From assembly GCF_014678725.1 (NCBI RefSeq), contig NZ_CP061497.1:62001-126000 (forward strand): 64,000 bases of DNA, written 5' to 3'. The position numbers and the translations under genes are program-made. The stretch's first letter is position 1, and every line of letters starts with the position of its first letter. This document shows positions 10,542-26,647 of the stretch, piece after piece. The notes under the pieces were generated by a model that made no database searches, was not told where the DNA came from, and saw only the letters and a program-made list of their open reading frames with translations. The DNA comes from Thermomonas sp. XSG. GTDB taxonomy: Bacteria; Pseudomonadota; Gammaproteobacteria; Xanthomonadales; Xanthomonadaceae.

Positions 10542-10554
10542 ACGGAATGGGCAT
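10541..10554 (+). repeat. Right copy of the 14/15-bp repeat, overlapping the dif-like site
   Basis: TACGGAATGGGCAT directly follows the XerD-type arm and repeats the sequence at 8483-8497, which has one extra A. Its last base is shared with the phrB promoter, so it lies in chromosomal flank rather than in the island. Confidence 0.5.
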
Positions 10555-10582
10555 GCATCGGTTACGCCCCATTTCGCGTATA
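10554..10582 (+). promoter_or_regulatory. Sigma/ChrR-type promoter of phrB
   Basis: TGCATCGG (10554-10561), 15 nt, then CGTATA (10577-10582), 36 bp before the phrB start. It shares both elements and the exact spacer with five other sites in the window. The -35 element is the least conserved of the set, with GG in place of CA or CG at its end. Confidence 0.7.
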
Positions 10583-10617
10583 TAGCCGGTCCTCTTTGAA
10601 GCAGGCTCGATCCCCCG

Positions 10618-12033
10618 ATGTCCACGGCCCTGGTGCTGTTCCGCCAAGACCTCCGCCTGAGCGACAACGCCGCGCTGACTGCCGCGTGCCTTGCCCATGA
10701 GCGCGTGCTGCCCGTCTACGTGCATGCGCCGGCCGAGTTGGCCCCCTGGGAACCCGGTGCGGCCAGTCGCTGGTGGTTGCATCATTCGATCGAGGCATTG
10801 CGCGGAGCTTTGGCGGCGCAAGGCGGTGACCTGCATGTGGGCGTCGGCGACACGCTCGGGCAGTTGCGCGCGCTGATCCGCGCCAGCGGCGCCACCGAGG
10901 TCCACTGGAACCGCCGCTACGAGCCCGCCGGGATTGCCGTTGACACCGCCCTGAAGGCGGCGCTGCGCGAGGACGGCATCACCGTGCACAGCCACGCCGG
11001 CGCGCTATGGAACGAGCCGTGGACGCTGGCCACCGATGCCGGCCAGCCGTATCGGGTGTTCACCCCGTTCTGGCGCAAGCTGCGCGCTGGCCTGCCTGAT
11101 GCGGCACCGCTGCCATCGGCGAGCGCGCGGGAGTGGCTGCGACTGCCGGGCAGCCTGCCGACGGACGCTCTTGGCCTGTTGCCTGCGATCCGCTGGGACG
11201 CCGGCCTGCAGTCCAGCTGGACGCCGGGGGAAGCCGGTGCAAAGGAGCTGCTGGAGGTCTTCGCCGACGATGCCGTGTCGGATTATGCGAAAGGCCGCGA
11301 CCTGCCGGCGCGCCACGGTACCTCGCGTCTCTCGCCGCACCTGCATTTCGGTGAAATCACCCCGGCGCAGATCCAGCGCGTGCTGCAGGACCGTGCCGCC
11401 TGCACAGACGCCCGTAAACGCCCCGACCTCGAACCCTATCTGCGCGAACTGGGGTGGCGCGAATTTGCCCACCACCTGCTCTATCACTTCCCGCACACCC
11501 CGGAAGCCAACTTCAACCCACACTTCGATACCTTCCCGTGGGCCGCTGCCGACGGCGCGCTGCTGGACCGCTGGCAGCGCGGCCGCACCGGCATTCCGCT
11601 GGTCGATGCCGGCATGCGCGAGCTGTGGCACACCGGCTGGATGCACAACCGCGTGCGCATGGTGGTGGCCAGCTTCCTGACCAAGAACCTGCGCCAGCAC
11701 TGGCGGCATGGCGCGCACTGGTTCTGGGACACGCTGGTGGATGCCGACCTGGCCAGCAACACCTTGGGCTGGCAGTGGGTGGCCGGCTGCGGCGCCGATG
11801 CGGCGCCCTACTTCCGCGTGTTCAACCCGTACCTGCAGGCGGCGAAGTTCGACCCGGACGCCGCTTACCTCAAGCGCTGGCTGCCGGAGCTGGCGTCGCT
11901 GCCGGCGAAGGCACTGCACGAGGCATGGCGCCACCCGGCTGCGCTTGCCGCGAAGGGCTACCCTGCTCCGATGGTCGACCTCGGCGCCTCGCGCGATGCC
12001 GCGCTGGCGGCTTGGGGGGCGCTGACCGCCTGA
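10618..12033 (+). CDS. phrB: Deoxyribodipyrimidine (CPD) photolyase
   Basis: A 471-residue class I photolyase that uses light and FADH- to split cyclobutane pyrimidine dimers. The N-terminal Rossmann antenna domain starts with ALVLFRQDLRLSDN, the typical VWFRxDLRLxDN motif. The C-terminal FAD domain shows WREFAHHLLYHFP, the RTGIPLVDAGMREL block, WMHNRVRMVVASFLTKNL and DADLASNTLGWQWVAG, the last containing residues of the electron-transfer tryptophan chain and the flavin-binding Asn. The length is normal. The stop codon abuts the stop of the convergent GGDEF gene with no gap. A sigma/ChrR-type promoter lies 36 bp upstream, linking repair to the singlet-oxygen response. Confidence 0.95.
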   Translation: MSTALVLFRQDLRLSDNAALTAACLAHERVLPVYVHAPAELAPWEPGAASRWWLHHSIEALRGALAAQGGDLHVGVGDTLGQLRALIRASGATEVHWNRRYEPAGIAVDTALKAALREDGITVHSHAGALWNEPWTLATDAGQPYRVFTPFWRKLRAGLPDAAPLPSASAREWLRLPGSLPTDALGLLPAIRWDAGLQSSWTPGEAGAKELLEVFADDAVSDYAKGRDLPARHGTSRLSPHLHFGEITPAQIQRVLQDRAACTDARKRPDLEPYLRELGWREFAHHLLYHFPHTPEANFNPHFDTFPWAAADGALLDRWQRGRTGIPLVDAGMRELWHTGWMHNRVRMVVASFLTKNLRQHWRHGAHWFWDTLVDADLASNTLGWQWVAGCGADAAPYFRVFNPYLQAAKFDPDAAYLKRWLPELASLPAKALHEAWRHPAALAAKGYPAPMVDLGASRDAALAAWGALTA

Positions 12034-13320
12034 TCAGTCGGGATCCGCAGCCTCCACCCGGTTGCGGCCACCGCTCTTGGCGCGGTACATCGCCTCGTCC
12101 GCCCGCTGCAGCAGCGCGCCAGCGGTTTCCCCGGCTGCCAGCTGCGCGACCCCCAGCGACACCGTGACCGGACCGGCCGCCGGAATCCCGGCACGCGCCA
12201 CGCCGGCGCGCAGGCGGCCGGCCAGCTCCATTGCCTGCGCGAGCGCGCATCCGGGCGCCAGCACCAGGAACTCCTCGCCGCCCCAGCGGATCGCCAGGTC
12301 ATCGCCACGGATGCCCGCCTGCAGGACTCCGCCGACCGCGATCAGGGCATCGTCGCCCGCCTGATGACCGCGCGAATCGTTGATGTGCTTGAAATGATCC
12401 AGATCGGCCAGGATCACGCTGAAAGGCTTGCCTGCAGCCTGCGCATCGGCGATCAGTGCCTCAAGCATCCGCGTACCGGCCAGCCGGTTGTACAAGCCGG
12501 TCAGGGCGTCGCGGCTGGCGATTTCAAGCAGGTGGCGCTCGCGCTCGACCCGCTCGCTCACGTCCTTGCCGGTGCTGATGTAGTGGGTGATGCGCCTGGC
12601 ACCATCGAGTACCGGCGAGATGCTCTGCTCGACATAGAACGGGCTGCCGTCCTTGCGACGGTAGGTGAACGTGGCGCGGAACGCCTTGCCTTCGCGCAGG
12701 GAGGTCCGCAGGTTGCGGTAGAACATCGGGTCGCGATGGGAGGGATACAGCATCCGCGCGGACTGACCCAGGATCTCGTCGGCGGCATAGCCGGTCAGGT
12801 GCCGGAATGCGTCGTTGACGAACACCACGCGGGTATCGCGGTCGGTGATCAGGATCGGGTCCAGCGATGCATGCAGGGCCTGCAGCAACAGCCGGCGCTC
12901 CTGCTCGCCGGCGATGCGCGCGGTGATGTCGTTCTGCACCGAGACGAAGTGCCGGACCGTGCCGTCTGCGTCGCGGACCGGGGCGATCGACCATTCCACC
13001 GTGTAGGCGCGGCCATCGGCCCTGTAGTTGACTGCGCTGGCCGAGAACGCCAGGCCCTGGCGCAGATGCTCCCGCAACGCAGCGAGCATCTTCCGGTCGG
13101 TGCGCGGGCCCTGCAGGATGCGCGGCGACTTCCCGACCAGCTCCTCCAGCCGGTAGCCGCTCATCCGGCAGAAAGCGGGGTTGGCGTGCACGATGAACGG
13201 CCCGCCTCCCGCAAGGTCGGCATCGGTGATGAGCACGGCGTTGGTGGCCTGCATGAAGGCCTGGCCGAACACGTTCGTCGGCTCGTATCCGGTCGCGGCG
13301 GCGCCTGTCATTCCGGCCAT
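12034..13320 (-). CDS. PAS-PAS-GGDEF diguanylate cyclase
   Basis: A 428-residue cytoplasmic sensor making cyclic di-GMP. Two PAS domains in tandem (about 15-135 and 140-255) are followed by the cyclase domain. PAS1 contains GYRLEELVGKSPRILQG, the shape of a LOV/PAS pocket, but the LOV cysteine motif GxNCRFLQ is not present. The active site is RWGGEEF, and an inhibitory I-site RxxD (RGDD) sits five residues before it, so product inhibition is expected. Start ATG at 13320 overlaps the upstream EAL gene; ATG at 13311 gives an ATGA overlap and is equally possible. No transmembrane segment. Confidence 0.9.
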   Translation of the reverse strand: MAGMTGAAATGYEPTNVFGQAFMQATNAVLITDADLAGGGPFIVHANPAFCRMSGYRLEELVGKSPRILQGPRTDRKMLAALREHLRQGLAFSASAVNYRADGRAYTVEWSIAPVRDADGTVRHFVSVQNDITARIAGEQERRLLLQALHASLDPILITDRDTRVVFVNDAFRHLTGYAADEILGQSARMLYPSHRDPMFYRNLRTSLREGKAFRATFTYRRKDGSPFYVEQSISPVLDGARRITHYISTGKDVSERVERERHLLEIASRDALTGLYNRLAGTRMLEALIADAQAAGKPFSVILADLDHFKHINDSRGHQAGDDALIAVGGVLQAGIRGDDLAIRWGGEEFLVLAPGCALAQAMELAGRLRAGVARAGIPAAGPVTVSLGVAQLAAGETAGALLQRADEAMYRAKSGGRNRVEAADPD

Positions 13321-14072
13321 GGAATATCGCCGCCCGGCGTGACCGCCTCGAACAGCGGGCGGCCGAACCAGTAGCCCTGCATCAGCTCGATGCCGAGGTC
13401 GCGCAGGCAGCGCATCTCGTCTTCGGTTTCGATGCCCTCGGCGATCACCCGGATGCCCAGTTCCCGGCACATCGTGGACACCCCCGCGACGATCGCGCGG
13501 CGCGGTTTGTTGGCGTCGATCCCGCGCACCAGCGCCATGTCCAGCTTGACGATATCAGGCTGGAAGTCGGCCAGCAGGTTGAGCCCTGCGAAGCCGGCCC
13601 CGAAGTCGTCGATCGCGGTGAGGAAGCCGATGCGCTGGTATTCGCGCAGCACCTCCGACAGCCACATGCCGTCGTTGACCTGCTCGCCCTCCACCGTCTC
13701 GAAGATGATCCGGTCGATCGGGAAGCGGTGCGTACGCGCCGCCACCAGGGTGGAACGGATGCACAGCTCCGGGCGGTAGATGGCATTGGGCAGGAAATTG
13801 ATCGACAGGAGGGACTGCATGCCCAGTCGCGAGGCGATCTCGATCGCCTTGCCGCGACAGGCCTGGTCGAACTGGTAGCGGTTGCCATCGGTGATCCGCG
13901 ACAGCACCGTCGGCGCCGGCTCGCCGGCTGGCCCGCGCACCAGCGCCTCGTGGGCGAACACTTCGCGTGTCGCCACGTTGACGATCGGCTGGAACGCGTA
14001 GCTGAAGTCGAAGTCGAGGGGCGCCGCATCCCGGCACAGTCCGCAACCCTCGCGTAGTTCCTTTTCCTGCAT
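13308..14072 (-). CDS. EAL-domain cyclic di-GMP phosphodiesterase
   Basis: A 254-residue single EAL-domain protein that should linearise c-di-GMP. Catalytic signature pieces are all visible: AHEALVRG (EAL), SINFLPN, FETVEGE, IDDFGAGFAGL (DDFGTG-like), VKLDMALV and IAEGIETEDE, then MQGYWFGRP. It has a short N-terminus with a CxxC pair (GCGLCRD), which could bind a metal or respond to redox. The start at 14072 is chosen because GGGAG sits 8 nt upstream. It is coupled to the downstream PAS-GGDEF gene by overlap, so opposing enzymes are made together. No sigma/ChrR-type promoter is seen in front. Confidence 0.9.
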   Translation of the reverse strand: MQEKELREGCGLCRDAAPLDFDFSYAFQPIVNVATREVFAHEALVRGPAGEPAPTVLSRITDGNRYQFDQACRGKAIEIASRLGMQSLLSINFLPNAIYRPELCIRSTLVAARTHRFPIDRIIFETVEGEQVNDGMWLSEVLREYQRIGFLTAIDDFGAGFAGLNLLADFQPDIVKLDMALVRGIDANKPRRAIVAGVSTMCRELGIRVIAEGIETEDEMRCLRDLGIELMQGYWFGRPLFEAVTPGGDIPWPE

Positions 14073-14151
14073 GCGGCTTGCTCCCGTCGGGATGGTGGCT
14101 TCAAAGCATACCCGAGGGTGTATGCGGCCCTCTGCGGGCGCACGCACGTGA

Positions 14152-14826
14152 TCAGCCCGATGCGCGGGCGGCGCGGGTGATGCCGGCGTTCTCGATCACC
14201 GCAGGTCGCCCGCGGTCGTCCAGGACCAGCCGCAACATGCACTCCCCGATGGCCCGCGTGCTGGTGAACACGCCCGCCAGGCAGCGCCCGGCCACGGCCA
14301 GTACCGGAGCAGCCAGCGCATACAGCCAGCGCCGCAGCCGATGCGGCGAGGCGATCCCGGACAGCGGCCGCACCACGCCGGGGCGGAGGCTGGTGTGGGC
14401 AAGACCCGAATGGGCCAGCGCCATCTCGGCTTCACCCTTGATCCGCAGCGGCATGAGCCGGCTGGCGGGATCCGCGCCCATGCCGGATATGTACGCGACG
14501 AAACCCCTCGGGTTGGCGGTGGCGTAGGCATCCACGACCCGCGCCAGCGTGGCCACGGTGGCCTCGCTGTAGGCGGCTTCGGTCATTCCCAGCGGCAGTG
14601 GCCCCGCGCAGTACAGGCAGGCGTCCAGGCCGGACAAGTCCAACGCCGCCAGCGCGGCGGCGGAAAACCCGGGCGCCCGCAGCACCCGCAGCTTCGGATG
14701 CGCAAAGGAGAATGGGCCCCGCACCAGCGCGGTGACCTCCGCGATATCGGAAGAGCCCAGCAGGACTTCCAGTACGCCCTGCCCCACCAGACCGGTCGCA
14801 CCGACCAGCAGCACCTGTTTGCCCAT
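14152..14826 (-). CDS. NAD(P)-binding Rossmann-fold oxidoreductase
   Basis: A 224-residue atypical short-chain reductase-like protein (NAD(P)H-binding, YwnB/NmrA style). The nucleotide loop is VLLVGATGLVGQG at the N-terminus. YISGMGAD and the later LRPGVVRP are typical of this group. No YxxxK pair stands in the usual place, so the reaction cannot be named. A GAGGAG ribosome site 7 nt before the ATG at 14826 decides the start. Third gene of the SDR/DUF2256 operon driven by the promoter at 15778; the 11-bp gap to the DUF2256 gene supports co-transcription. Confidence 0.8.
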   Translation of the reverse strand: MGKQVLLVGATGLVGQGVLEVLLGSSDIAEVTALVRGPFSFAHPKLRVLRAPGFSAAALAALDLSGLDACLYCAGPLPLGMTEAAYSEATVATLARVVDAYATANPRGFVAYISGMGADPASRLMPLRIKGEAEMALAHSGLAHTSLRPGVVRPLSGIASPHRLRRWLYALAAPVLAVAGRCLAGVFTSTRAIGECMLRLVLDDRGRPAVIENAGITRAARASG

Positions 14827-14837
14827 CGCCCGGCTCC

Positions 14838-14978
14838 TCACCTGCGCCCCCGGCAACGCCGGGAACAGTAACGCACCGCATCCCAGTCGCGCGTCCATCT
14901 GCGCCGCCACTGGAACGACAGGCCGCAGGTTGCGCACGGCTTGCGTGGCAGTTCGTGCCTTCTTCGCATGCGCGGCAT
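14838..14978 (-). CDS. DUF2256 small zinc-ribbon protein
   Basis: A 46-residue protein that automatic callers often miss. It contains CATCG and, after FQWRRRW and DWDAVRYC, the final CSRRC, giving two CxxC-type pairs for a zinc site. This Trp/Arg-rich pattern is the DUF2256 signature, a family that commonly neighbours photolyases and cryptochromes; its function is unknown. The start at 14978 (MPRMRRR) has an AGG 9 nt upstream, and the next ATG at 14969 has none. It begins 10 bp after the SDR gene stops. Confidence 0.8.
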
Positions 14979-14988
14979 GGATGGCGAC

Positions 14989-15714
14989 CTATTTGCCTGC
15001 CACCGCGCCGCGGCCACCATCGACCCCGAGCACCTGGCCGGTGATCCAGTCGGCCTGCGAAGACAGCAGGAACGCCGCCGTGGCGGCCGCATCCTCCGGC
15101 GTGCCCAGCCGGCCCATCGGATGCGCCTCCGCGATTGCCTCGCGCAGGCGCTGGCTGCCGAGGATGCGCTGCGCCAGGGGGGTGTCGGTCAGCGACAGCG
15201 CGATGGCATTGATGCGCACTGCGGGCGACAACACCGCCGCCAGCGAACGTACCAGCCCGTCCACGGCGGCTTTCGCCATGCCGATGGAGGTGTGCATGGG
15301 GAAGCCGCGCCCGGCCGCCACCGAAGAAAACAGCACGACCGCGGCGCGCTTGGGGGCTGCGCGCAGTGCCGGCAGCGCGGCCTGTACCGCCAGCGCCGCA
15401 CCGGATGCATTCAGGCGGAAATCGCGATCGAAATCCGCGGCGCTCATGCGTTCGAACGGCTTCAGGTTGATGCTGCCGATGGCATACGCCAGGCCGGACA
15501 GCGCCGGCCCGGCGTCTTCTGCCACCTGGGCGAATGCGTCGGGCTGCAGCACGTCGACGGCGGTGAAGGTCGCACCCAGTTCGTCGGCCAAGGCTTGCAG
15601 GCGCGCCGCGTCGCGGGCAACCAGATGCAGGGCGCGACCCTCGCCGGCCAGCCGGCGGCACAATGCGCTGCCGATGCCGCCGGTGGCCCCGTACACCAAG
15701 TATTTCTCCGCCAT
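14989..15714 (-). CDS. SDR-family protein with the catalytic Tyr replaced by Ile
   Basis: A 241-residue classical short-chain dehydrogenase/reductase fold. The cofactor loop is YGATGGIG (8-15), the NxAG-like position reads AYAIGS, and Ser131 of FSSVAAG is kept. At the usual YxxxK site the sequence is SIGMAK: Lys148 is present but the tyrosine is Ile144 (codon ATC). The C-terminal pattern [11 protein letters not shown] is normal. Without Tyr it may be a poor dehydrogenase, or may use another acid/base; it could also be a structural or binding protein. First gene of a three-gene operon expressed from a sigma/ChrR-type promoter at 15778-15750, divergent from the lipocalin operon. Confidence 0.85.
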
Positions 15715-15749
15715 CAGCTTCACCGGTCCCGCGTTCCGTAATGGGCTCC

Positions 15750-15778
15750 GATACGGACGCTGCCTGCGATCGGATGCA
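15750..15778 (-). promoter_or_regulatory. Sigma/ChrR-type promoter of the SDR operon
   Basis: On the minus strand TGCATCCG (15778-15771), 15 nt, then CGTATC (15755-15750), 36 bp before the SDR start codon. It is divergent from the matching promoter at 15799-15827. Confidence 0.75.
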
Positions 15779-15798
15779 CGCCGTGCAGGACGCCCTCC

Positions 15799-15827
15799 TG
15801 CATCCGGACGGCGCGGGCCTGCGTATA
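15799..15827 (+). promoter_or_regulatory. Sigma/ChrR-type promoter of the lipocalin-photolyase operon
   Basis: TGCATCCG (15799-15806), 15 nt, then CGTATA (15822-15827), 31 bp before the lipocalin ATG. Only 20 bp separate it from the divergent promoter of the SDR operon. Confidence 0.75.
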
Positions 15828-15857
15828 GGCGGCATCCCCTTCGATGTCGATCCTCCC

Positions 15858-16433
15858 ATGCGCAGCCTCGCCACCTCCGCCCTGCCCCTGCTGCTGGCAA
15901 CTTTGTTGAGCGGTTGCGCCGAAGCGGGCACGCCCATCCAGACCGTGCACAACGTTGACCTGCCGCGCTTCATGGGTCGCTGGTACGTGATCGGCATCAT
16001 CCCGACCCATTTCGAGCGAGGCAGCCACAACCCGGTGGAAACCTACCGGCTCGATCGCAAGGGCAATGTCTGCACCTGGTACCGCTATCGCCCGGACCGC
16101 TTCGACGCCCCGGTGAAGCTGCTGAAATCCACTGGCCTGGTGGTGCCGGGCACCGGCAATGCCGAGTGGAAGGTGCGCTTCTTCGGGCTGTTCAAAGCGC
16201 AGTACAAGGTTGGCTGGCTGGCTCCGGACTACAACCAGGTACTGATCGTGCGCGACGCCCGCGACTACCTGTGGTACATGGCGCGCACGCCCACCGTGGC
16301 GGAAAGCGATTACCAAGCCATGCTGGCACGGGCCGGCACGCTGGGCTACGACGTAGGCCGCATCGAGCGCGTGCCGCAGCGCTGGCCCGAGACCGACGCC
16401 GGCCGCGACACCTTCGACGGGGACTGCGAATGA
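15858..16433 (+). CDS. Lipocalin family outer-membrane lipoprotein (Blc-like)
   Basis: A 191-residue bacterial lipocalin. A signal peptide ends in the lipobox LLSGC, so it is probably anchored by lipid. The lipocalin signature PRFMGRWYVIG follows the mature N-terminus, and the later blocks PGTGNAEWKV and YLWYMARTP match Blc-type beta-barrels that bind lipids or lysophospholipids. Start ATG at 15858 is the only one giving a signal peptide. First gene of an operon with the TspO-like protein (ATGA overlap) and the iron-sulfur photolyase. A paralogue without lipobox closes the lipid operon at 27741. Confidence 0.88.
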   Translation: MRSLATSALPLLLATLLSGCAEAGTPIQTVHNVDLPRFMGRWYVIGIIPTHFERGSHNPVETYRLDRKGNVCTWYRYRPDRFDAPVKLLKSTGLVVPGTGNAEWKVRFFGLFKAQYKVGWLAPDYNQVLIVRDARDYLWYMARTPTVAESDYQAMLARAGTLGYDVGRIERVPQRWPETDAGRDTFDGDCE

Positions 16434-17191
16434 GGTTCCTGGTTCTCGCGCTGGCGCTGGCGATGCCGCTGGTCGGCTGGCTGTCGAACACCGGCCTGCT
16501 GGGGCCGACCAACGGCGAGATCTCCGACCGCTACCCCACGTTGATCGTCGCGGCCGGCTACGCCTTTGCCATCTGGGGGCCGATCTTCCTGCTCGACGTG
16601 GTGTTCGGCGTCGCCCAGGCCCGCGTGCGCGAGCCGGGCACGCGCCTGCTGCGCATCCGCGTGCTCACCGCGGTGGGCTTCGCGCTGACCTCGCTGTGGA
16701 TGGTGGTGTTCACCCTGCAATGGTTCTGGCTGGCGCTGGCGATCATCTGGGGCAGCCTGTGGTGCCTGCTAGGCGCGGCGTGGCTGGCCTCGCAGACCCG
16801 GCATCATCGCCGCGGGCCGTGGTGGCAATGGCTGCCGCTGTCGCTGCACGCGGGCTGGGTTTCGCTGGCGGTGTTCCTCAACGTGGCGCAGGTGGTGGTT
16901 GCATTCCGGCTGCTGTCCGTCGAGCGGATGCTGCCGTGGACGCTGGTGCTGTTCGCGCTGGCCGGCGTGCTGTTGCTGGTCATGGTGGTGAAGCTGCGCG
17001 GCAATCCGTGGTACGCGCTGGCAGCCGTGTGGGGCCTGCTGGGCGTGCATGCCAAGCAGCAGGCGTCCGCGCTGCCGGGCGCCGACACGGCGGCCAGCGT
17101 GGCGATGGCGATGGCGGTGCTGGTGGCGCTGACCGCGCTCGCCGCAGGTGTCACGGGCTGGCGCACGCGCCGCACTCTACGCACGGGATGA
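16430..17191 (+). CDS. TspO/MBR-like tryptophan-rich membrane protein
   Basis: A 253-residue integral membrane protein with about seven hydrophobic segments. The beginning GLLGPTNGEISDRYPTL leading into AGYAFAIWGPIF is typical of the long TspO-like proteins annotated as tryptophan-rich sensory proteins; Trp is abundant (WFWLA, PWWQWLP). Classical TspO binds porphyrins and regulates oxidative stress; that role is only suggestive here. The ATG shares ATGA with the lipocalin stop, and its own stop shares ATGA with the photolyase gene, so the three are one translational unit. Confidence 0.75.
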   Translation: MRFLVLALALAMPLVGWLSNTGLLGPTNGEISDRYPTLIVAAGYAFAIWGPIFLLDVVFGVAQARVREPGTRLLRIRVLTAVGFALTSLWMVVFTLQWFWLALAIIWGSLWCLLGAAWLASQTRHHRRGPWWQWLPLSLHAGWVSLAVFLNVAQVVVAFRLLSVERMLPWTLVLFALAGVLLLVMVVKLRGNPWYALAAVWGLLGVHAKQQASALPGADTAASVAMAMAVLVALTALAAGVTGWRTRRTLRTG

Positions 17192-18717
17192 CCTGCCTGC
17201 GCCTAGTCCTGGGCGACCAGCTGGACCCTCGGCACCCCTGGTTCGACGCGGCGTCGCCGGATGTCCTGTACGTGCTGATGGAGGTGCGGCAGGAAACCGA
17301 CTACGTGCTGCATCACGCGCAGAAGATCCTCGCCATCTTCGCCGCCATGCGCCGCTTCGCCGACCGGTTGCGCGCGGCGGGCCACCGCGTCGTCTACCTG
17401 CAGATCGACGATCCGGACAACCTGCCCTCGCTGACCGCCAACCTCGATCGGTTGATGGCGCAGCACGGCGCCACCGCGTTCGAGTACCAGGCGCCGGACG
17501 AATGGCGGCTGGATGAGCAGCTGCGCGACTACGCCGCGGACCTGGAAATCCCGGCGCGCTGCGTGGACAGCGCCCACTTCCTGACGGCGCGCGACGAAGT
17601 GGCGCGCTTCTTCGGCACGCGCAAGCGCTGGACCATGGAGCTGTTCTACCGGCACATGCGGCAGCAGCACGGCATCCTGCTGGAGCCGGACGGCGGTCCT
17701 CTGGGCGGGCGCTGGAACTTCGACGCCGAGAACCGAAAGCCCTGGCGCGGCGACCCGCCGGAACCGCCGGACCTGCGGCCGGTGCATGACCACCGCGCCC
17801 TGTGGGCGAGCATCGAAGCCGCCGGCGTCGCCAGCTTCGGTGACCCGTCGGCGGACGCCTTCCGCTGGCCGATCGGCCGCGAGGAAGCGCTGGGCCAGCT
17901 CGACGCCTTCGTCGAGCACGCGCTGCCGCACTTCGGCGACTACCAGGACGCGTTGAGCAGCCGCGCGGCGCGGCTGTTCCACTCGATGCTCTCGTTCGCG
18001 CTCAACGTGAAGATGCTGTCGCCGGCCGAGGTGATTGCCCGGGTGGAAGCCGAAGGCCGCGCCGGCCGCGCGCCGCTGGCGGCGGTGGAGGGCTACATCC
18101 GCCAGATTCTGGGCTGGCGCGAGTACGTGCGCGGCGTGTACTGGGCGGGCATGCCCGCCTACGAGGCCAGCAACGCCTTCGGGCACAACCGCCCGCTGCC
18201 GGAATGGTTCTGGACCGGGCGCACCCGGATGGCCTGCGTGCGCAGCGCGATTGGTCAGTCGTTGGCGCACGCGCACGCCCACCACATCCAGCGGTTGATG
18301 GTCATCGGCAACTTCGCGCTGCTGGCCGGGCTGGACCCGCAGGCGCTGCATCGCTGGTACCTCGGCATCTACATCGACGCCTTCGAATGGGTGGAACTGC
18401 CCAACACCGTGGGCATGAGCCAGTTCGCCGACGGCGGCCTGCTGGCGACCAAGCCCTACATCTCGTCGGCCGCCTACCTGTACCGCATGGGCGACCATTG
18501 TGGCCAGTGCCATTACCGCCGCGACGCCCACACCGGCCCGCGCGGCTGCCCATTCAACGCCCTCTACTGGGACTTCCTGGACCGCAACGGCGAGCGGCTG
18601 GCGGGCAACCCGCGGCTGGCGATGCCCTACCGGCAGCTGGCGCGCATGCCGGACGCGCGCCGCGAGGCGCTGGCGGAGCGTGCCATGCAGGTGTTGGCCG
18701 ACCTAGACAGCCTCTGA
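17188..18717 (+). CDS. Iron-sulfur photolyase / bacterial cryptochrome (FeS-BCP, (6-4)-type)
   Basis: A 509-residue member of the FeS-BCP branch. The N-terminus LRLVLGDQLDPRHPW is diagnostic. The four cysteines of the [4Fe-4S] cluster are at 350 (MACVRS), 438 and 441 (HCGQC) and 454 (GCPF), the same numbering as in Agrobacterium PhrB. PhrB-type enzymes repair (6-4) photoproducts and use 6,7-dimethyl-8-ribityllumazine as antenna; CryB-type ones act in light signalling. The repair function is inferred. It is followed by folE, 104 bp away with its own promoter. ATG shares ATGA with the preceding gene. Confidence 0.92.
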   Translation: MTCLRLVLGDQLDPRHPWFDAASPDVLYVLMEVRQETDYVLHHAQKILAIFAAMRRFADRLRAAGHRVVYLQIDDPDNLPSLTANLDRLMAQHGATAFEYQAPDEWRLDEQLRDYAADLEIPARCVDSAHFLTARDEVARFFGTRKRWTMELFYRHMRQQHGILLEPDGGPLGGRWNFDAENRKPWRGDPPEPPDLRPVHDHRALWASIEAAGVASFGDPSADAFRWPIGREEALGQLDAFVEHALPHFGDYQDALSSRAARLFHSMLSFALNVKMLSPAEVIARVEAEGRAGRAPLAAVEGYIRQILGWREYVRGVYWAGMPAYEASNAFGHNRPLPEWFWTGRTRMACVRSAIGQSLAHAHAHHIQRLMVIGNFALLAGLDPQALHRWYLGIYIDAFEWVELPNTVGMSQFADGGLLATKPYISSAAYLYRMGDHCGQCHYRRDAHTGPRGCPFNALYWDFLDRNGERLAGNPRLAMPYRQLARMPDARREALAERAMQVLADLDSL

Positions 18718-18723
18718 CCCCGC

Positions 18724-18752
18724 TGCATCCAAACCGGATCGCGCGGCGTAAG
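18724..18752 (+). promoter_or_regulatory. Sigma/ChrR-type promoter of folE
   Basis: TGCATCCA (18724-18731), 15 nt, then CGTAAG (18747-18752), 69 bp before the folE start. The bases GC before the -35 element are shared with the lipid-operon promoter at 21023. Confidence 0.75.
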
Positions 18753-18821
18753 CACTGGCACGCGCTGCGCCCGGCAACGGCCCTGCGTCGCGTGCCCTCC
18801 CCCTGCCTTCGAGGCCGCCCC

Positions 18822-19541
18822 ATGTCGCATCCCCTGCGGGAACCCGCCCCCATCCAGCGCCTCGCGTCGCTCACCGCATCGCAGCGCGTCCGCGAACGCC
18901 TGCGCAGCGCCGGCACCCGCTTCCACGCCAACGACAACATCGCCGACTACCTCGAGGACGGCGAGCTGGAGGCGATCGAAGGCGAGGTGGCCGCCAAGGC
19001 GCAGGAGATGCTGCGCGCGCTGGTCATCGACGTCGACAACGACCACAACACCCGCGACACCGGCCGCCGGCTGGCCAAGATGTTCGTGCGCGAACTGTTC
19101 GCCGGACGCTATCAGCACGCGCCCGCGGTCACCGAATTCCCCAACGCCGAGCGCCTGAACGAGCTGATGATCGTCGGCCCGCTGCGCGTGCGCAGCGCCT
19201 GCTCGCACCACCTGTGCCCGATCATGGGGCGGGTCTGGGTGGGCGTGCTGCCCGACGCCGACTCCAACCTGATCGGCCTGTCCAAGTACGCCCGCCTGAT
19301 CGACTGGGTCATGAGCCGGCCGCAGATCCAGGAAGAGGCGGTGAGCCAGATCGCCGACCTGCTTGAGCAGCGGCTGAAGCCGGACGGAATCGCTGTGGTC
19401 ATGGAAGCCGACCACTACTGTATGCACTGGCGAGGGGTGAAGGACGACGAGTCGAAGATGATCAACAGCGTGATGCGCGGCCGCTTCCTGGCCGACCCGT
19501 CGCTGCGCAAGGAATTCCTGTCGCTTCGCCACCGCGGCTGA
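18822..19541 (+). CDS. folE: GTP cyclohydrolase I
   Basis: A 239-residue FolE converting GTP to 7,8-dihydroneopterin triphosphate, the first step to tetrahydrofolate and pterins. Zinc and active-site blocks are present: RSACSHHLCPIMGRVWVG, then IGLSKYARLIDW, QEEAVSQIADLL and ADHYCMHWRGVKD. The last 60 residues are standard. An ATG at 18822 gives a roughly 50-residue N-terminal extension typical of class I FolE. Placement in the photolyase region under a sigma/ChrR-type promoter suggests supply of a folate-type antenna for the photolyases, in addition to any housekeeping role. A strong terminator follows. Confidence 0.93.
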   Translation: MSHPLREPAPIQRLASLTASQRVRERLRSAGTRFHANDNIADYLEDGELEAIEGEVAAKAQEMLRALVIDVDNDHNTRDTGRRLAKMFVRELFAGRYQHAPAVTEFPNAERLNELMIVGPLRVRSACSHHLCPIMGRVWVGVLPDADSNLIGLSKYARLIDWVMSRPQIQEEAVSQIADLLEQRLKPDGIAVVMEADHYCMHWRGVKDDESKMINSVMRGRFLADPSLRKEFLSLRHRG

Positions 19542-19565
19542 CCGGCGCCCACTTCGCCAAGACGG

Positions 19566-19601
19566 ACGGCCCGCATCTCGCGATGCGGGCCGTTTCCTTT
19601 T
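19566..19601 (+). terminator. Rho-independent terminator of folE
   Basis: Perfect 12-bp arms (19566-19577 ACGGCCCGCATC and 19582-19593) around the tetraloop TCGC, followed by a T-rich run TTCCTTTT. The hairpin could also stop transcripts of the convergent sigma-chrR operon, though the T-run favours the plus strand. Confidence 0.88.
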
Positions 19602-19634
19602 GGGACAGGAGAGGCGTTCGGCGGTGGGCCGGGG

Positions 19635-20309
19635 TTACAGGCCCACCATCGGCTGCAGCTTGCGCGCCAGCCAGCCGCGGAATTGCAGCGGGCCGTCCAG
19701 CGCCGCCACGCAGATGCAGGGCACGCCCGGCGAGGTCACCGGCTGGTGCTCGATGTCGCTGTCCAGGTCGGCCATGTCGCCGGGGCCGAAATGGCCCAGT
19801 TCGTCGTCGTAGGCACCCTTGAGGATCTGGGTCAGCTCGCTGCCGCCATGGCTGTGCACCGGCATGCTCTTGCCCGGCGCGATCCTGAGCAGGATCAGGG
19901 TATCGCCGCTGCTCCGCGGCGCCCGGATCATGTGCACGCCCGGTGCCATCCAACGCCAGCGCAGCGCCTTCCAGCTCTTGCCGAAATACGGCTGCAGCGG
20001 GCGGGGCAGCGCGTCCAGCGAACGCGGGGCATTGGTGGTTTCGGACGGGTCATTTGCCGCCGCGGGCAGCGGCTGCTGCAAGCGGGCCAGCATGTCCTCG
20101 CGCAGGCGTGCGGCCTGCTGCGGCTCCGACGCCGCGGGTTGCTGCTGCGAGAGCAGCACGCCGCCGACACGCTCGGCCGCTGCCAGTTGCTGGCGGCAGT
20201 AGGCGCAGCCTTCCAGGTGGGTGTCGGCAACCGCCGCCATTTCCGGCGACAGCGCGCCGGCGGCATGGCTGACCAGGGTGGCCGGATCGAGGTGATGGCG
20301 CGGGGTCAT
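19635..20309 (-). CDS. chrR: ChrR-type zinc anti-sigma factor with cupin domain
   Basis: A 224-residue anti-sigma factor. The N-terminal ZAS domain carries His31-x3-Cys35-x2-Cys38 (HLEGCAYC), which holds zinc and masks the sigma factor. The C-terminal cupin shows His152, His154 and Glu158 (PVHSHGGSE) and His188, a second metal site. In Rhodobacter sphaeroides the ChrR cupin is needed to release sigma in response to singlet oxygen. Its start overlaps the sigma gene stop by 4 bp. It is transcribed from the promoter upstream of the sigma gene. Confidence 0.9.
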   Translation of the reverse strand: MTPRHHLDPATLVSHAAGALSPEMAAVADTHLEGCAYCRQQLAAAERVGGVLLSQQQPAASEPQQAARLREDMLARLQQPLPAAANDPSETTNAPRSLDALPRPLQPYFGKSWKALRWRWMAPGVHMIRAPRSSGDTLILLRIAPGKSMPVHSHGGSELTQILKGAYDDELGHFGPGDMADLDSDIEHQPVTSPGVPCICVAALDGPLQFRGWLARKLQPMVGL

Positions 20310-20881
20310 GTGGCCTCCTGCACGCCCGACTGCAGGCGCAGGAAGGCACGGCGGATGGAGGATTTGACCGTGCCCAGCGGCATCCCGAGTTCATCGGCGA
20401 TCTGCTGGTGGGACTTGGCTTCGAAATAGGACATGCGGATCAGGCGGGCTTGGGTCGCGGACAGGCGCTCGATGCGTTCGTTGAGGTCGGCGTGGGCGGC
20501 AAAGCTCTCCGCGGAGGAGAACGCGGGATTGTCGGTTTCCGCCTCGAACTCCAGCGGCTCCATGTCCACGGCGATCCACTGGTTCTCCCGGCGCAGCCGG
20601 TCGATGTGCAGGTTGCGGGCGATCCGGAACAGCCAGGTGGCCAGCGAGCTGCGGGCCGCGTCGTAGCTGTCGGCGCGTTGCCACAGCCGCAGCAGTGCTT
20701 CCTGCGCCAACTCCTCGGCAACTGCTTCGCGCGCGCCCAGGCCGCGCAGGTACAGCCGCACCCGCGGGGCGAAGTGGTCGTAGATCCGCATGAAGCAGGT
20801 CTGGTCGCGGCGGCGCGCGACCGCCTGCATCTGCCCGGACCAGTAGCCCGGGTCCCCGGGGCTTGCTTCGGCGATGGACAT
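20306..20881 (-). CDS. rpoE: ECF sigma factor partnered with ChrR (RpoE/ECF11-like)
   Basis: A 191-residue sigma-70 family ECF factor. Region 2 contains ELAQEALLRLWQRA and FRIARNLHIDRLR; region 4 ends in RMSYFEAKSHQQIADELG and GTVKSSIRRAFLRLQ. The ATG at 20881 is preferred: the promoter's -10 element at 20974-20979 rules out the farthest upstream start, and the alternative ATG at 20935 has no ribosome site. It should recognise TGCATC-N17-CGTA-type promoters, including its own, giving autoregulation. The divergent lipid operon starts from the other half of a shared palindrome. Confidence 0.88.
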   Translation of the reverse strand: MSIAEASPGDPGYWSGQMQAVARRRDQTCFMRIYDHFAPRVRLYLRGLGAREAVAEELAQEALLRLWQRADSYDAARSSLATWLFRIARNLHIDRLRRENQWIAVDMEPLEFEAETDNPAFSSAESFAAHADLNERIERLSATQARLIRMSYFEAKSHQQIADELGMPLGTVKSSIRRAFLRLQSGVQEAT

Positions 20882-20973
20882 GGATCTGGCCGCCTCGAAG
20901 GGCGACAGGTTTCCGCGGTTGGGGTCGGAACGCATGGTAGGGCAAACACGGCCAGCTGGGACGGACACCAGCC

Positions 20974-21002
20974 TCTACGGTCGCCGCCGCCGATTGGATG
21001 CA
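20974..21002 (-). promoter_or_regulatory. Autoregulatory promoter of the sigma-chrR operon
   Basis: On the minus strand TGCATCCA (21002-20995), 15 nt, then CGTAGA (20979-20974). Its -35 element is half of the perfect inverted repeat TGGATGCAGC / GCTGCATCCA at 20995-21004 and 21021-21030. Confidence 0.75.
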
Positions 21003-21022
21003 GCGAAACCGGCAGGCCCGGC

Positions 21023-21051
21023 TGCATCCATTCCGCGTGCTGTCGCGTAAG
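21023..21051 (+). promoter_or_regulatory. Sigma/ChrR-type promoter of the lipid-modification operon
   Basis: TGCATCCA (21023-21030), 15 nt, then CGTAAG (21046-21051), 28 bp before the desaturase ATG. It forms the right half of the 10-bp palindrome shared with the sigma-gene promoter. Confidence 0.78.
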
Positions 21052-21078: not shown

Positions 21079-22044
21079 ATGCCCCAGGACCCGGCACCCC
21101 TCCCCTCCCGAGCCGACAACGCCCCCGCGCGCGCGGCCCGGCGCAGCCTGCTGCAATGGTTCGACAGCGCCGCCGTGCCGGCTGCCGGCGGCGCCGACGC
21201 GGACCGGGTGGACTGGCTGCGGGTGCTGCCGTTCGTGTTGCTGCACCTGGGCTGCATCGGGGTGCTGTGGGTCGGTGTTTCGCCGATGGCGGTGCTGGTC
21301 GCCGCCCTGCTCTACGTCGTGCGGATGTTCGCCATCACCGGCTTCTACCACCGCTACTTCTCGCATCGCGCGTTCCGTACCTCGCGTCCGCTGCAGTTCG
21401 TGTTCGCACTGATCGGCGCCGCCAGCGTGCAGCGCGGGCCGCTGTGGTGGGCAGCACACCATCGCCACCACCACCGCCATTCCGATACTGCGGACGACCT
21501 GCATTCGCCCCGCCACGGGTTCTGGCGCAGCCACATGGGCTGGTTCCTGACCCGGCGTGCGTTCGCCACCGACCTCAGCCGGGTGCCGGACTTGGCGCGG
21601 TTCCCCGAACTGCGCTGGCTGGACCGCTATGACGTGGCGGTCCCAGCCGCGATGGCGGTGGGTCTGTATGCGCTGGGCGCACTGCTGGAGCGCTTCGCGC
21701 CGACGCTGGGCACCAGCGGGCTGCAGCTGCTGGTCTGGGGCTTCTTCGTGTCCACCGTGGTGCTGTTCCACGCGACGGTGACCATCAATTCGCTGTCGCA
21801 CCGCTTCGGCCGCCGCCGCTTCCCGACCAGCGACGACAGCCGCAACAACCTGTGGCTGGCGCTGCTGACCTTCGGCGAGGGCTGGCACAACAACCACCAC
21901 TTCTACTCCAGCAGTGCGCGGCAGGGATTCCGCTGGTGGGAGATCGACCTGACCTGGTACGGCCTGCGGCTGATGGCGCTGCTGGGGCTGGTGCGCGACC
22001 TCAAGCCGGTGCCCGAGTGGGTGCTGGCGAAGGCGGAGCGCTGA
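21079..22044 (+). CDS. Acyl-CoA / fatty-acid desaturase
   Basis: A 321-residue membrane di-iron desaturase. The three histidine boxes are HRYFSH (91-96), HHRHHHRH (127-134) and HNNHH near residue 275; hydrophobic segments near 50-85 and 205-260 form the membrane part. It should introduce a double bond into acyl chains using oxygen. The start at 21079 follows the promoter -10 element by 28 bp and has GGA upstream. First gene of an eight-gene operon; the next gene begins 2 bp after its stop. The double bond it makes could be the substrate for the downstream Cfa-type methyltransferases. Confidence 0.88.
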   Translation: MPQDPAPLPSRADNAPARAARRSLLQWFDSAAVPAAGGADADRVDWLRVLPFVLLHLGCIGVLWVGVSPMAVLVAALLYVVRMFAITGFYHRYFSHRAFRTSRPLQFVFALIGAASVQRGPLWWAAHHRHHHRHSDTADDLHSPRHGFWRSHMGWFLTRRAFATDLSRVPDLARFPELRWLDRYDVAVPAAMAVGLYALGALLERFAPTLGTSGLQLLVWGFFVSTVVLFHATVTINSLSHRFGRRRFPTSDDSRNNLWLALLTFGEGWHNNHHFYSSSARQGFRWWEIDLTWYGLRLMALLGLVRDLKPVPEWVLAKAER

Positions 22045-22045
22045 G

Positions 22046-23305
22046 ATGCGCATCGCAGTCGTCGGTTCCGGCATCGCCGGCCTGGCCAGCGCCTGGCTGC
22101 TGTCGCAGGCGCACGAGGTGGTGCTGTTCGAGGCCAACGACTACCTCGGCGGGCACACCCACACCCACGCCGTCGAGCAGGCCGGGCGTTCGTATCAAGT
22201 GGATACCGGCTTCATCGTCCACAACCCGGCGCATTACCCGCTGCTGACCCGCCTGTTCGACACCTTGGGCGTGGCGACGCAGCCCACCACCATGAGTTTT
22301 TCGGTGCACAGTGCCCGCACCGGGCTGGAATACAACGCGACCACGCTGGATACGCTGTTCTGCCAGCGCCGCAACCTGCTGTCGCCGCGCTTCCTCGGCA
22401 TGGTGCGCGACCTGTTCCGCTTCTACCGGCAGGCGCCGTCCCTGCTGGTGGGTGACGGCCCGGGCCCGGGCATCGGCGACTGGCTGGATGCCAATGGCTA
22501 CGGCGCGGCCTTCCGCGACGACCATCTGGTGCCGATGGCCTCGGCGCTGTGGTCGTCGCCGCCGGAGCAGATCCTGCGGTTCCCGGCGCGCTACCTGGTG
22601 CAGTTCATGGCCAACCACCAGATGCTGCAGGTCAGCGGCCGCCCCGAGTGGCGGGTGGTGCGCGGCGGGTCTGCCAGCTATGTCGAAGCGCTGCGTGCGC
22701 GCTGGCAGGTGCAGGAACGCCTGCGCTGCCCCGTGCGCTCGGTAGTCCGCGATGGCCACGGCGTGGTGGTGGAGAGTGCAGCCTGCAGTGAACGCTTCGA
22801 CCAGATCGTGCTGGCCTGCCACAGCGACCAGGCGCTGGCGCTGCTGGCCGACGCCAGCGTCAACGAACGCGACGTCCTCGGTGCGATCGCCTACCAGCCC
22901 AACGAGGTGGTGCTGCACACCGATGCCAGCCTGCTGCCGCGCAACCGCAAGGCGTGGGCGGCATGGAATGCCTTCCTGCCGGGCGACCCGGAGGCGCCCT
23001 GCACCGTCAGCTACTGCATGAACCTGCTGCAGGGCCTGCATTCGCCCGACCCGTTCGTGGTGACGCTGAACCGCAGCGAGGCTATCGCCCCGGACAAGGT
23101 GCTGCGCCGGCTGCGCTACCACCACCCGGTGTATGACGCGGCGTCGGTGGCGGCGCAGCAGCGAAAAGCCGCCATCCAGGGCCACAACCACACCTGGTTC
23201 GCCGGCGCTTACTGGGGCTGGGGCTTCCACGAGGACGGCATGCGCAGCGCCGTAGAAGTCGCGGCCGGGCTGGGCGTGGCGTGGCCGCAGGGTGCGGCAG
23301 CATGA
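22046..23305 (+). CDS. FAD/NAD(P)-binding oxidoreductase (amine-oxidase type)
   Basis: A 419-residue flavoprotein. The FAD-binding loop [13 protein letters not shown] begins at residue 8, followed by [13 protein letters not shown], the typical second motif of this family. The C-terminal [18 protein letters not shown] closes the FAD site. Homologues next to DUF1365 and Cfa genes belong to sigmaE/ChrR regulons in other proteobacteria, where this cluster has been tied to unusual (furan-type) fatty acids; a fatty-acyl oxidoreductase role here is inferred. It shares ATGA with the DUF1365 gene. Confidence 0.82.
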
Positions 23306-24078
23306 GCGCGCGGCTGCACAGCGCGGTTTACGAAGGCGTGGTCCGGCATCGCCGCAGCGCGCCGCGCCCGCATGCGTTCCGTTACCGGATGGCCCAGCTC
23401 TACCTCGACCTCGACGAGATCGACGCCGTGTTCCGCGGCCGCTGGCTGTGGTCGGTCGGGCGCCGCAACCTGGCCGAATTCCGCCGCGCCGATTTCCTCG
23501 GCCCGGCGGAGCGACCGCTCAAGGAAGCGGTGAAGGACCGGGTGGAGGCCGCCATCGGCGAGCGCCCGGCCGGCCCGGTGCGCCTGCTGGCGCACCTGCG
23601 CTACGCCGGCATGGTGTTCAACCCGGTCAGCTTTTATTACTGCTTCGACGCCGACGGCGAAACCCTGCACAGCATCGTCGCCGAGATCACCAACACACCG
23701 TGGCTGGAGCGCCACGCCTACGTGCTGCCGGTGGACGCCGCCAGCGGCAACGGACGGATGCTGCGCTGGGACTTCGACAAGACCTTCCATGTTTCTCCGT
23801 TCCTTGGCATGCAGCGCCGCTACGACTGGCGCTTCACCGTGCCCGCCGACGCCCTGCACGTGAACATGGCGGTGCTGGGTGCGAACGGCCGCGAGTTCGA
23901 CGCGCACCTGCAGCTGCGGCGCCGCCCGATCAGCGCCGACGCGCTGGCGCGCGTGTTGTGGCGCTATCCGCTGATGACCGCGCAGGTGGTCGGTGCCATC
24001 TACTGGCATGCCCTGCGGCTGTGGCTCAAGCGCACCCCCTTCCACGACCATCCACGACTTTCAGGAGGCCGTTCTTGA
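23302..24078 (+). CDS. DUF1365 domain protein
   Basis: A 258-residue protein of the DUF1365 family. Typical blocks are [48 protein letters not shown] and DKTFHVSPF. No catalytic residues are established for the family; it is nearly always beside the FAD oxidoreductase and a Cfa-type methyltransferase, so a role in fatty-acyl modification is likely. Start ATG overlaps the previous stop by 4 bp, and its stop overlaps a TTG start of the next gene. Confidence 0.85.
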
Positions 24079-25325
24079 ACGCCATCGTCCAGACCGCACC
24101 CGCCAGCGCATTCGGCGCCTTCGACAAGTTCCTGCGCCAGCGCGTGCTGCAGCGTCTGTCCGCGCTGGGCCACGGCCACCTGCTGGTCAACGACGCGCTG
24201 GGCAGCGCCGAGTTCGGTCGCGCCGGCGATGGCCCCGCGGTCGTCCTCGATGTGCTGGACCCGGGCTTCTACCGGGCTTTGGCCGGCAACGGCAGCGTCG
24301 GTGCTGGCGAGGCCTACATGGACGGTCAGTGGCGGTGCAGCGACCTGGTCGCACTGGTGCAGCTGCTGGTGCGCAACCGCGACCTGCTGGACGGTATGGA
24401 AACCGGCAGCGCCCGGCTGGGCGGGCTGGCGATGCAGGCACTGCACGCCCTGCGCCGCAACACCCGCGCCGGCAGCCGGCGCAACATCGCCGCGCACTAC
24501 GACCTCGGCAACGACTTCTTCCGCCTGTTCCTGTCCGCGGACCTGATGTATTCCTCGGCGTACTGGGCGGGTGACGACGACACGCTGGAAGCGGCCTCCA
24601 CCCGCAAGCTGGATGTGATCTGCCGCAAGCTGGCGCTGAACCCCGGCGACCATGTGGTGGAGATCGGCACCGGCTGGGGCGGCTTCGCCCTGCATGCCGC
24701 CCGGCACTACGGCTGCCGCGTCACCACCACCACCATCTCGCGCGAGCAGCACGACCTCGCCGCGGCGCGGATCCAGCAGGCCGGTCTGGGCGAACGCGTG
24801 ACCCTGCTGCAGTCCGACTATCGCGACCTTGATGGCCAGTACGACAAGCTGGTGTCGATCGAGATGATCGAGGCGGTGGGCGCGGACTTCCAGGACAGCT
24901 ACTTCTCTCAGATCGGCCGGCTGTTGAAGCCGGAGGGACTGGCGCTGGTGCAGGCCATCACCATCGAGGACCATCGCTACGAGCAGGCGTTGAAGTCAGT
25001 GGACTTCATCAAGCGCCACGTGTTCCCCGGCTGTTTCATTCCCTCGGTCAGCGCGATGCTGGCGTCGAAGACCCGCAGCAGTGACCTGGCGCTGGTCGCG
25101 CTGGAGGATTTCGGCCTGTCCTATGCGCGCACCCTGCATGCCTGGCGCGAACGCTTCCTCGCGCAGCTGGCGGCGGTGCGGGCGCAGGGCTTCGACGAGC
25201 GCTTCATCCGCATGTGGGAGTTCTACCTCGCCTATTGCGAAGGCGGCTTCCGCGAGCGTGCCATCGGCGTGTCGCACCTGCTGATGGCCAGGCCGGGCTG
25301 GCGTCCGCTGGAGCACGGCGCATGA
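24075..25325 (+). CDS. cfa: Cyclopropane-fatty-acyl-phospholipid synthase family methyltransferase (TTG start)
   Basis: A 416-residue SAM-dependent enzyme acting on unsaturated acyl chains of phospholipids. [15 protein letters not shown] and MYSSAYW are Cfa hallmarks; the SAM loop is [10 protein letters not shown] near 197. EMIEAVG and FIKRHVFPG follow as in Cfa. The start is TTG at 24075, with AGGAGG 6 nt upstream and TTGA overlap with DUF1365; no ATG fits. It may make cyclopropane, or methylated precursors of furan fatty acids. It is the first of two such enzymes in the operon. Confidence 0.88.
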
Positions 25326-25855
25326 CCTTCTGGCTGACCCTGCTGGGCTATCAGGCCACCTGGTTCGCGGCGGTGATCGGCGCCGGCCAGGGCCTGTGGT
25401 GGCCGGGCGCCGCCGCCGCCGGGCTGTTCGCGCTGTGGCGACTGTCGGTGTCGCCGCACCGGTTGCTGGAGGCGCGGCTGGTGCTGGTGGCGCTGGCCGT
25501 CGGCCTGGTGCTGGAAAACCTGTGGGTGCGCAGCGGGTTGCTCGACTACGCCGCGGCCTGGCCGTGGGCGGGTTCGCCGGCGTGGATCCTGGCCCTGTGG
25601 TGGGCATTCGCGCTGGCCATCGTGCCGCTGCTGGGCTACCTGCACCGGCGCCTGCTGCTGGCGGCGCTGTTCGGTGCGATCGGCGGCCCGCTGGCCTACC
25701 TTGGCGCCGCGCGCGGCTGGGACGTGGTGCAGTTCGCCAGCCCGCAGTGGCACAGCCTGCTGGCGCTGGCCGCCGGCTGGGCGCTGGCGATGCCCCTGCT
25801 GGCGTGGCTGGCCCGGCGCGGCCTGCAACAGAGTCCCCAGGGAGGTGCCGCATGA
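25322..25855 (+). CDS. DUF2878 membrane protein
   Basis: A 177-residue protein with about five hydrophobic helices and little else, matching the DUF2878 type found in the same Cfa/DUF1365 clusters. SGLLDYAAAWPWAGSPAWILALWW, read in pieces, is a typical loop-helix. No catalytic motif is visible. ATGA overlaps on both sides show tight coupling with cfa and the DUF1295 gene. Confidence 0.75.
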   Translation: MTFWLTLLGYQATWFAAVIGAGQGLWWPGAAAAGLFALWRLSVSPHRLLEARLVLVALAVGLVLENLWVRSGLLDYAAAWPWAGSPAWILALWWAFALAIVPLLGYLHRRLLLAALFGAIGGPLAYLGAARGWDVVQFASPQWHSLLALAAGWALAMPLLAWLARRGLQQSPQGGAA

Positions 25856-26625: not shown

Positions 26626-26647
26626 CCTAGCAACAAGGAGCGCGCGC

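Follow-up and report, generated by a model that had tools for sequence, protein, structure and literature searches.

Groups of extracytoplasmic function (ECF) sigma factors are customarily assigned one promoter motif per group. A stretch of 64,000 nucleotides from Thermomonas sp. XSG (contig NZ_CP061497.1, positions 62,001 to 126,000; hereafter the window) raises the question of how such a motif comes to differ: it holds genes for an ECF sigma factor (P0001) and a ChrR anti-sigma factor, together with six copies of a promoter-like sequence whose -35 element departs from the published motif of the corresponding group, ECF11. We consider it very probable that this is a ChrR-held ECF11 regulon re-specified by a leucine-to-arginine change in the helix that recognizes the -35 element. 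A whole bacterial order would then read a shifted motif. The base and the residue concerned are in contact in relatives of known structure, which makes the shift testable in a laboratory host at the level of a single residue and a single base.

An exact search of both strands for TGCATC(C/G)(A/G)-N15-CGTA(A/T/G)(A/C/G) returned six matches in the window, the same six positions and strands that a preliminary description of this DNA had listed (Table 1). That such identically spaced sites ahead of transcription units are unlikely by chance, as the description had argued, is borne out by 100 dinucleotide shuffles of the window (mean 0.01 matches, maximum 1). The distance from site end to ATG is 35 bp for phr, 35 bp for the short-chain dehydrogenase (SDR) gene, 30 bp for the lipocalin gene, 69 bp for folE, 92 bp for the sigma factor gene and 27 bp for the desaturase gene. 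The whole 3.05-Mb genome has 10 strict matches (0 for a reversed-pattern control), nine of which sit shortly 5' of the start of an open reading frame (ORF); the scatter of intragenic matches that would speak against a regulon was not seen in this genome. Three of the four matches outside the window lie 23, 68 and 48 bp ahead of ATG-started ORFs encoding, in that order, a protein with a catalase fold, a fasciclin protein and a 256-amino acid product without a Pfam match. The fourth (TGCATCGA, locus L007) falls within an ORF and looks like a chance occurrence. When the spacer in TGCATC-Nk-CGTA was left free from 8 to 26, the pair was not enriched in the genome (57 matches, compared to 67 for the reversed control). 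The preference for one spacer length is nevertheless real: 11 of the 57 have a spacer of 17, which equals N15 after the two further bases (SR) of the strict pattern, and the remaining 18 lengths share 46. ATCC-Nk-CGTA, scanned over the same range in the window, gives eight matches at k = 16, and no other k gives more than four; five of the eight are TGCATCC sites and three have other -35 bases. TGATCC-N16-CGTA does not occur in the window. The three other ATCC-N16-CGTA stretches start at 62932 (+), 9788 (-) and 8485 (-) and carry different bases at -36 to -34.

The genes identify the system. P0001 contains ECF regions 2 and 4 (PF04542, PF08281; TIGR02937 above cut-off), and its nearest solved relative is RpoE of Rhodobacter sphaeroides (2q1z/2z2s, E 2.5e-31). 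Its partner scores 165.5 bits on the ChrR model TIGR02451 (cut-off 124.5) and 161.9 on the narrower NF051881, under the cut-off of 300; Cupin_7 is above cut-off, zf-HC2 slightly under (20.7 compared to 22.2), and the translation contains a putative zinc-type N-terminal motif, HLEGCAYC. A site precedes every gene counted among the ECF11 core targets, or its operon: the sigma factor's own operon and the genes for photolyase, cyclopropane-type synthase, amine oxidase and SDR (PMC5507510). The published ECF11 promoter, TGATCC-N16-CGTA, is matched in spacer and -10 element and not in the -35 element, which is TGCATCC here. The locus is thus an ECF11-type sigma/ChrR pair with a real and well-bounded regulon, a variant with altered -35 specificity. 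ChrR would hold the sigma factor, and upon its release RNA polymerase would transcribe from the six sites, each presumably recognized directly: those of sigma-chrR itself, the divergent lipid operon, two photolyase-type genes, the lipocalin and SDR genes, and folE. The fasciclin gene, the catalase-fold gene and a predicted envelope gene outside the window are probable further targets. Singlet oxygen, which activates ECF11 systems by way of ChrR turnover, is a candidate signal here, as is blue light.

Read from the alignment, the window motif is the TGATCC-N16-CGTA promoter with T changed to G at -35 and G changed, usually to C, at -34. We surveyed 164 ChrR-linked loci across the phylum, with the sigma factor found in 151, and added 28 loci of an alphaproteobacterial family (f212), for a total of 179; sites were searched with ATC, the spacer and CGTA fixed and bases -36 to -34 free. 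In the window's family and its sister family (f1 and f2), base -35 of the sigma promoter is G in 49 of 49 sites, and base -34 is mostly C (41 sites), with A and G at four sites each. Every one of the 30 sigma-positive genomes in the window's family has the site ahead of its sigma gene, as do 19 of the 20 sister-family loci. Within our samples, the G-35 promoter variant marks Xanthomonadales. A sister-family sigma factor with KSRLRKAF (L174) has no strict site upstream and is a possible intermediate or loss.

All f1 and f2 sigma factors of these 49 sites have arginine at the position equivalent to R176 of SigE. Among the 147 loci with a parsed helix and site, arginine coincides with G-35 in 49 of 49 autoregulatory sites, compared to 1 of 98 (L152) where arginine is lacking; for the divergent promoters, the figures are 22 of 22 and 5 of 70. 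Crystal structures show O6 of G-35 bonded by R176 in SigE and by R175 in SigW (PMC6713349); the SigW residue is the one that aligns with R178 of P0001. A leucine-to-arginine change at this position would offer a clear one-residue explanation of G-35: R178 is predicted to contact G at -35, and the Xanthomonadales sigma factor would read (T)GCATCC-N16-CGTA rather than TGATCC-N16-CGTA. Residue 176 rather than 173 is indicated, since the sigma factor of L045 has asparagine at 173 and leucine at 176 and its promoter is still TGATC.

Several observations weigh against this explanation. Within ECF11 the pairing of arginine with G-35 amounts to about one evolutionary event (one independent pair, both clades being well separated on the tree), and the p-value is therefore no evidence for repeated coupling. 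Arginine alone may be insufficient, because R173 and base -34 changed in the same clade. The leucine-bearing sigma factor of L152 has a GC site, with TGATCC at its divergent promoter, and lysine at the same position, in five f212 loci, pairs with AA, CA or TG and not with G. No sigma factor was found at 13 of the 164 ChrR-linked loci, and 32 of the 179 loci were dropped from the test because the helix was not parsed or a strict site was lacking. Among 30 sites fetched from six genomes of relatives, 11 precede no homologue of a regulon gene; the other 19 do, including homologues of the fasciclin gene and the 256-amino acid ORF. The f212 loci, considered as a possible second, independent instance of a basic residue at this position, gave no support, lysine occurring there without G-35. 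Across f212 (L198-L219) the position is phenylalanine, asparagine or lysine, and the -35 element is loose at -35/-34, chiefly in the divergent promoter. Metagenome bins labelled Chloroflexota and Steroidobacteraceae (L331, L340) carry a Xanthomonadales-type sigma factor, probably on misplaced contigs; L331 matches two Pseudomonadota bins with equal score.

The clade's promoters might instead have changed by descent, with Arg178 arising coincidentally on the same branch. The essentially single origin of the pairing within ECF11 and the substitutions at position 173 and base -34 on that branch fit such drift. We consider it unlikely nonetheless: two structures show this residue and this base in contact (PMC6713349), positions -34 and -36 vary within the clade whereas G-35 is constant at the autoregulatory and divergent sites alike, and G-35 is likewise found in 26 of 26 sites of an unrelated SigK-like sigma factor that has arginine at the equivalent position.

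Experiments on dependence on the ChrR-linked sigma factor come from Stenotrophomonas maltophilia KJ (PMC11832516). In a chrR mutant, expression rose 45-fold on the rpoEc-chrR side and up to 697-fold on the lipid side in one RNA sequencing run, and both inductions fell back in the double mutant; tolerance to singlet oxygen was unaffected. The induced genes form two divergent operons equivalent to 20306-28298 here. In S. maltophilia genomes, the sigma side of these operons has CTGCATCC and the lipid side either GCGCATCC or ACGCATCC, and therefore the motif lies on promoters with demonstrated sigma dependence; the S. maltophilia loci with species names overlap those of the wider survey and are not an independent sample. 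Together with the curated ChrR score and the family-wide occurrence of the promoter where the sigma factor is present, this dependence upholds the autoregulated sigma/ChrR regulon proposed in the preliminary description. It also makes it very improbable that the sites are read by some other sigma factor of this genome. Such a reading draws on the SigK-like sigma factor, which by inference reads the same motif in relatives, and on the further ECF sigma factors in the genome (11 first-look candidates); the SigK-like sigma factor was not found in this genome in a search of 196 family genomes, and across the family the sites cluster around, and autoregulate, the gene for the ChrR-linked sigma factor.

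Least tenable is a -35 element truly one base longer (TGCATC rather than TGATC) with a spacer one base shorter, which would suit the possibility of writing TGC-ATC as TGATC with an inserted C and the frequent T at -36 (40 of 49 autoregulatory sites of f1 and f2), and which is ruled out as a register error by the constant distance of 16 from ATCC to CGTA in five groups, leaving no insertion between -33 and -10; some Xanthomonadales sites, moreover, read GCGCATCC, TGAATCC or GGGATCC, as expected of substitution at -35/-34. The counts of ATCC-N16-CGTA upstream of the sigma gene are 49 for f1, 22 for f2, 39 for other gammaproteobacteria, 57 for the rest of the phylum and 53 for f212, compared to at most three per group at any other spacing from 8 to 26, with no second peak. 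The motif is given as TGATCC-N16-CGTA in Pseudomonas syringae (PMC5507510) and, with mapped start sites, in Shewanella (PMC4336711), and as TGATC-N16-18-CGTAW in Vibrio cholerae (PMC5241685). Of the preliminary description's two statements about the -35 element, lineage specificity stands and the additional base does not.

The promoter sequence is not confined to genomes with the ECF11 sigma factor. That sigma factor is lacking, at E 1e-25, in 168 of 198 family genomes, many of which still contain the promoter sequence; in one genus (g14), tandem sites precede a fasciclin gene at all four loci examined. In G189 a site lies 21 bp ahead of a desaturase gene adjoined by another ECF sigma factor, P0003, 34% identical to P0001, with an RskA_C anti-sigma factor (P0004, above cut-off) alongside. 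The best relative of P0003 in the PDB is SigK of Mycobacterium tuberculosis (4nqw), although it scores 156 on the NCBIfam SigK model, under the cut-off of 226, and its recognition residues, KSWIRRG, are not those of M. tuberculosis SigK, KSRMRDA. Relatives of P0003 occur in 60 of 196 family genomes; the ECF11 and site survey covered 198, and the two additional genomes were counted as lacking the SigK-like sigma factor. TGCATCCR-N15-CGTA averages 3.81 sites in the 27 genomes with only ECF11 (26 with at least one), 3.95 in the 57 with only the SigK-like sigma factor (all with a site), 3.33 in the three with both and 0.46 in the 111 with neither (33 with a site), compared to 0 to 0.18 per genome for the reversed pattern across the four classes. 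Four genomes in which neither sigma factor was detected (G040, G068, G100 and G121) have four such sites each.

All 30 SigK-like loci fetched from the family have KSWIRR, and 25 have a strict site nearby, 24 of them on the strand of the sigma gene; G-35 is present in all 26 sites, as noted above. GCATCC is the sequence of the desaturase promoter at all 20 ECF11 loci and all 15 SigK-like loci that hold the gene. P0003 would read these sites, judging by adjacency and genome content. Beyond the family, the SigK-like sigma factor was matched in 87 of 365 genomes of the phylum; among 30 loci fetched from these, 18 stand beside a fasciclin gene and ATCC-N16-CGTA appears upstream three times, including L297 (TGCATCC) and L298. 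Most of these loci lack the site, and therefore the evidence for a shared promoter code is confined to the window's family. At the ECF11 sigma factor's own promoter, four loci of this family, L036, L037, L038 and L039, have GGATCC, two of them in genomes with both switches (G176, G178); this is possibly insulation from the SigK-like sigma factor, which has GCATCC there.

These observations lead us to favor, by a modest degree, a broader proposal: ECF11-ChrR and SigK-like-RskA have repeatedly replaced each other in Xanthomonadaceae on one fixed regulon, both carrying the arginine while the promoters stay, and the change from T-35 to G-35 made ECF11 interchangeable. The order SigK-like sigma, RskA, site, desaturase, amine oxidase, DUF1365 and CMAS recurs in the window's genus (G183), in genus g30 (G145 and G195), other species of which have ECF11-ChrR, and in genus g17 (G139); in a fifth region fetched (G002), the SigK-like module with its site stands beside fasciclin genes instead. 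Nine of the 13 genera with ECF11 also include a species with the SigK-like module, and co-occurrence is limited to three genomes (odds ratio 0.22, p 0.009, uncorrected for relatedness). The two kinds of sigma factor form separate, fully supported groups on a tree built without the recognition helix. Acquisition of the arginine by exchange of region 4 with the SigK-like sigma factor was rejected: with the recognition helix set aside, region 4 of the ECF11 sigma factors from Xanthomonadales is closer to other ECF11 (mean identity 0.33-0.38) than to SigK-like sigma factors (0.28). Replacement of one switch on a standing regulon, enabled by the shared promoter code, is the simplest reading, and the window may, with less certainty, be one side of such an exchange between unrelated switches. 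If so, the promoters of a regulon can persist when unrelated proteins take the place of its sigma factor and stress sensor. This would be relevant to the question of regulon rewiring and advises caution in assigning a controlling sigma factor by promoter alone.

SigK-RskA systems of M. tuberculosis and its relatives have fasciclin-type targets and a lipid gene neighborhood. The SigK regulon includes mpt70/mpt83 (PMC7509140), and M. tuberculosis SigK aligns an aspartate with the arginine of P0003. RpoE/ChrR of Rhodobacter capsulatus is described as SigK/RskA-like (PMC7074977); such a pair in the place of RpoE/ChrR is a precedent for this kind of event, although it concerns one species pair and the portion of that paper available describes no shared promoter code. 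RpoE-ChrR of R. sphaeroides (ECF11) resembles the present system in its ChrR anti-sigma factor and its photolyase, cyclopropane/furan-type lipid and fasciclin targets (PMC5507510, PMC6852236, PMC7074977), and differs in its helix (KSRIRLAL, compared to KSSIRRAF here) and its group's TGATCC. PSPTO_1043 of P. syringae (PMC5507510) and RpoE2-ChrR of Shewanella (PMC4336711) share the N16 spacer, the -10 CGTA, ChrR, and photolyase and lipid targets, and have TGATCC at -35. S. maltophilia KJ, with rpoEc-chrR-chrA and smlt2375-smlt2367, is of the same clade and has the divergent operon pair, proven sigma dependence and a MEME box; in the available part of that study the box is shown as a figure, and we found no comparison to TGATCC and no link to a residue (PMC11832516). 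Neither the Xanthomonadales -35 variant nor the exchange within the family was found in the literature searched; that search did not extend to the figure with the S. maltophilia logo, to supplements or to subscription papers, and either may be in print.

Table 1. Predicted promoter sites and genes of the regulon in the window
Feature	Position	Strand	Basis or remark
Site 1, TGCATCGG-N15-CGTATA, 5' of phr	10554..10582	+	Pattern match; sole ATCG (not ATCC) among the six
phr, DNA photolyase/cryptochrome family	10618..12033	+	PF03441, PF00875 (Pfam)
NAD(P)-binding protein, downstream of SDR	14152..14826	-	PF13460
Short-chain dehydrogenase (SDR)	14989..15714	-	PF13561
Site 2, TGCATCCG-N15-CGTATC, 5' of SDR	15750..15778	-	Pattern match
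Site 3, TGCATCCG-N15-CGTATA, 5' of lipocalin operon	15799..15827	+	Pattern match
Lipocalin	15858..16433	+	PF08212
ORF, 253 amino acids	16430..17191	+	Pfam scan, no match
Photolyase-related protein (DPRP)	17188..18717	+	PF04244
Site 4, TGCATCCA-N15-CGTAAG, 5' of folE	18724..18752	+	Pattern match
folE, GTP cyclohydrolase I	18822..19541	+	PF01227; under NCBIfam cut-offs
ChrR anti-sigma factor	19635..20309	-	TIGR02451, Cupin_7, zinc-type motif
ECF sigma factor P0001	20306..20881	-	Recognition helix GTVKSSIRRAF; Arg178 equivalent to SigE R176
Site 5, TGCATCCA-N15-CGTAGA, autoregulatory, 5' of sigma-chrR	20974..21002	-	Pattern match
Site 6, TGCATCCA-N15-CGTAAG, 5' of lipid operon	21023..21051	+	Pattern match
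Lipid operon	21079..28298	+	Pfam; some inner gene starts approximate

Among the gene names of the preliminary description, TspO for the 253-amino acid ORF found no backing in Pfam. The lipid operon encodes a fatty acid desaturase, a flavin amine oxidase, DUF1365, CMAS, DUF2878 and DUF1295 proteins, a second CMAS protein and a lipocalin. Based on its domain only, the NAD(P)-binding protein is a possible counterpart of S. maltophilia ChrA. The phr site of another genome of this genus (G107, L248) is likewise TGCATCGG. The gap between the -35 ends is 20 bp in both divergent site pairs (15779-15798 and 21003-21022), probably a coincidence, because the distance differs in relatives (for example, L012). 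An inverted repeat, CATAAT-GCAT-ATTATG, at 10520-10535, directly 5' of the phr site, might be a binding place for another regulator.

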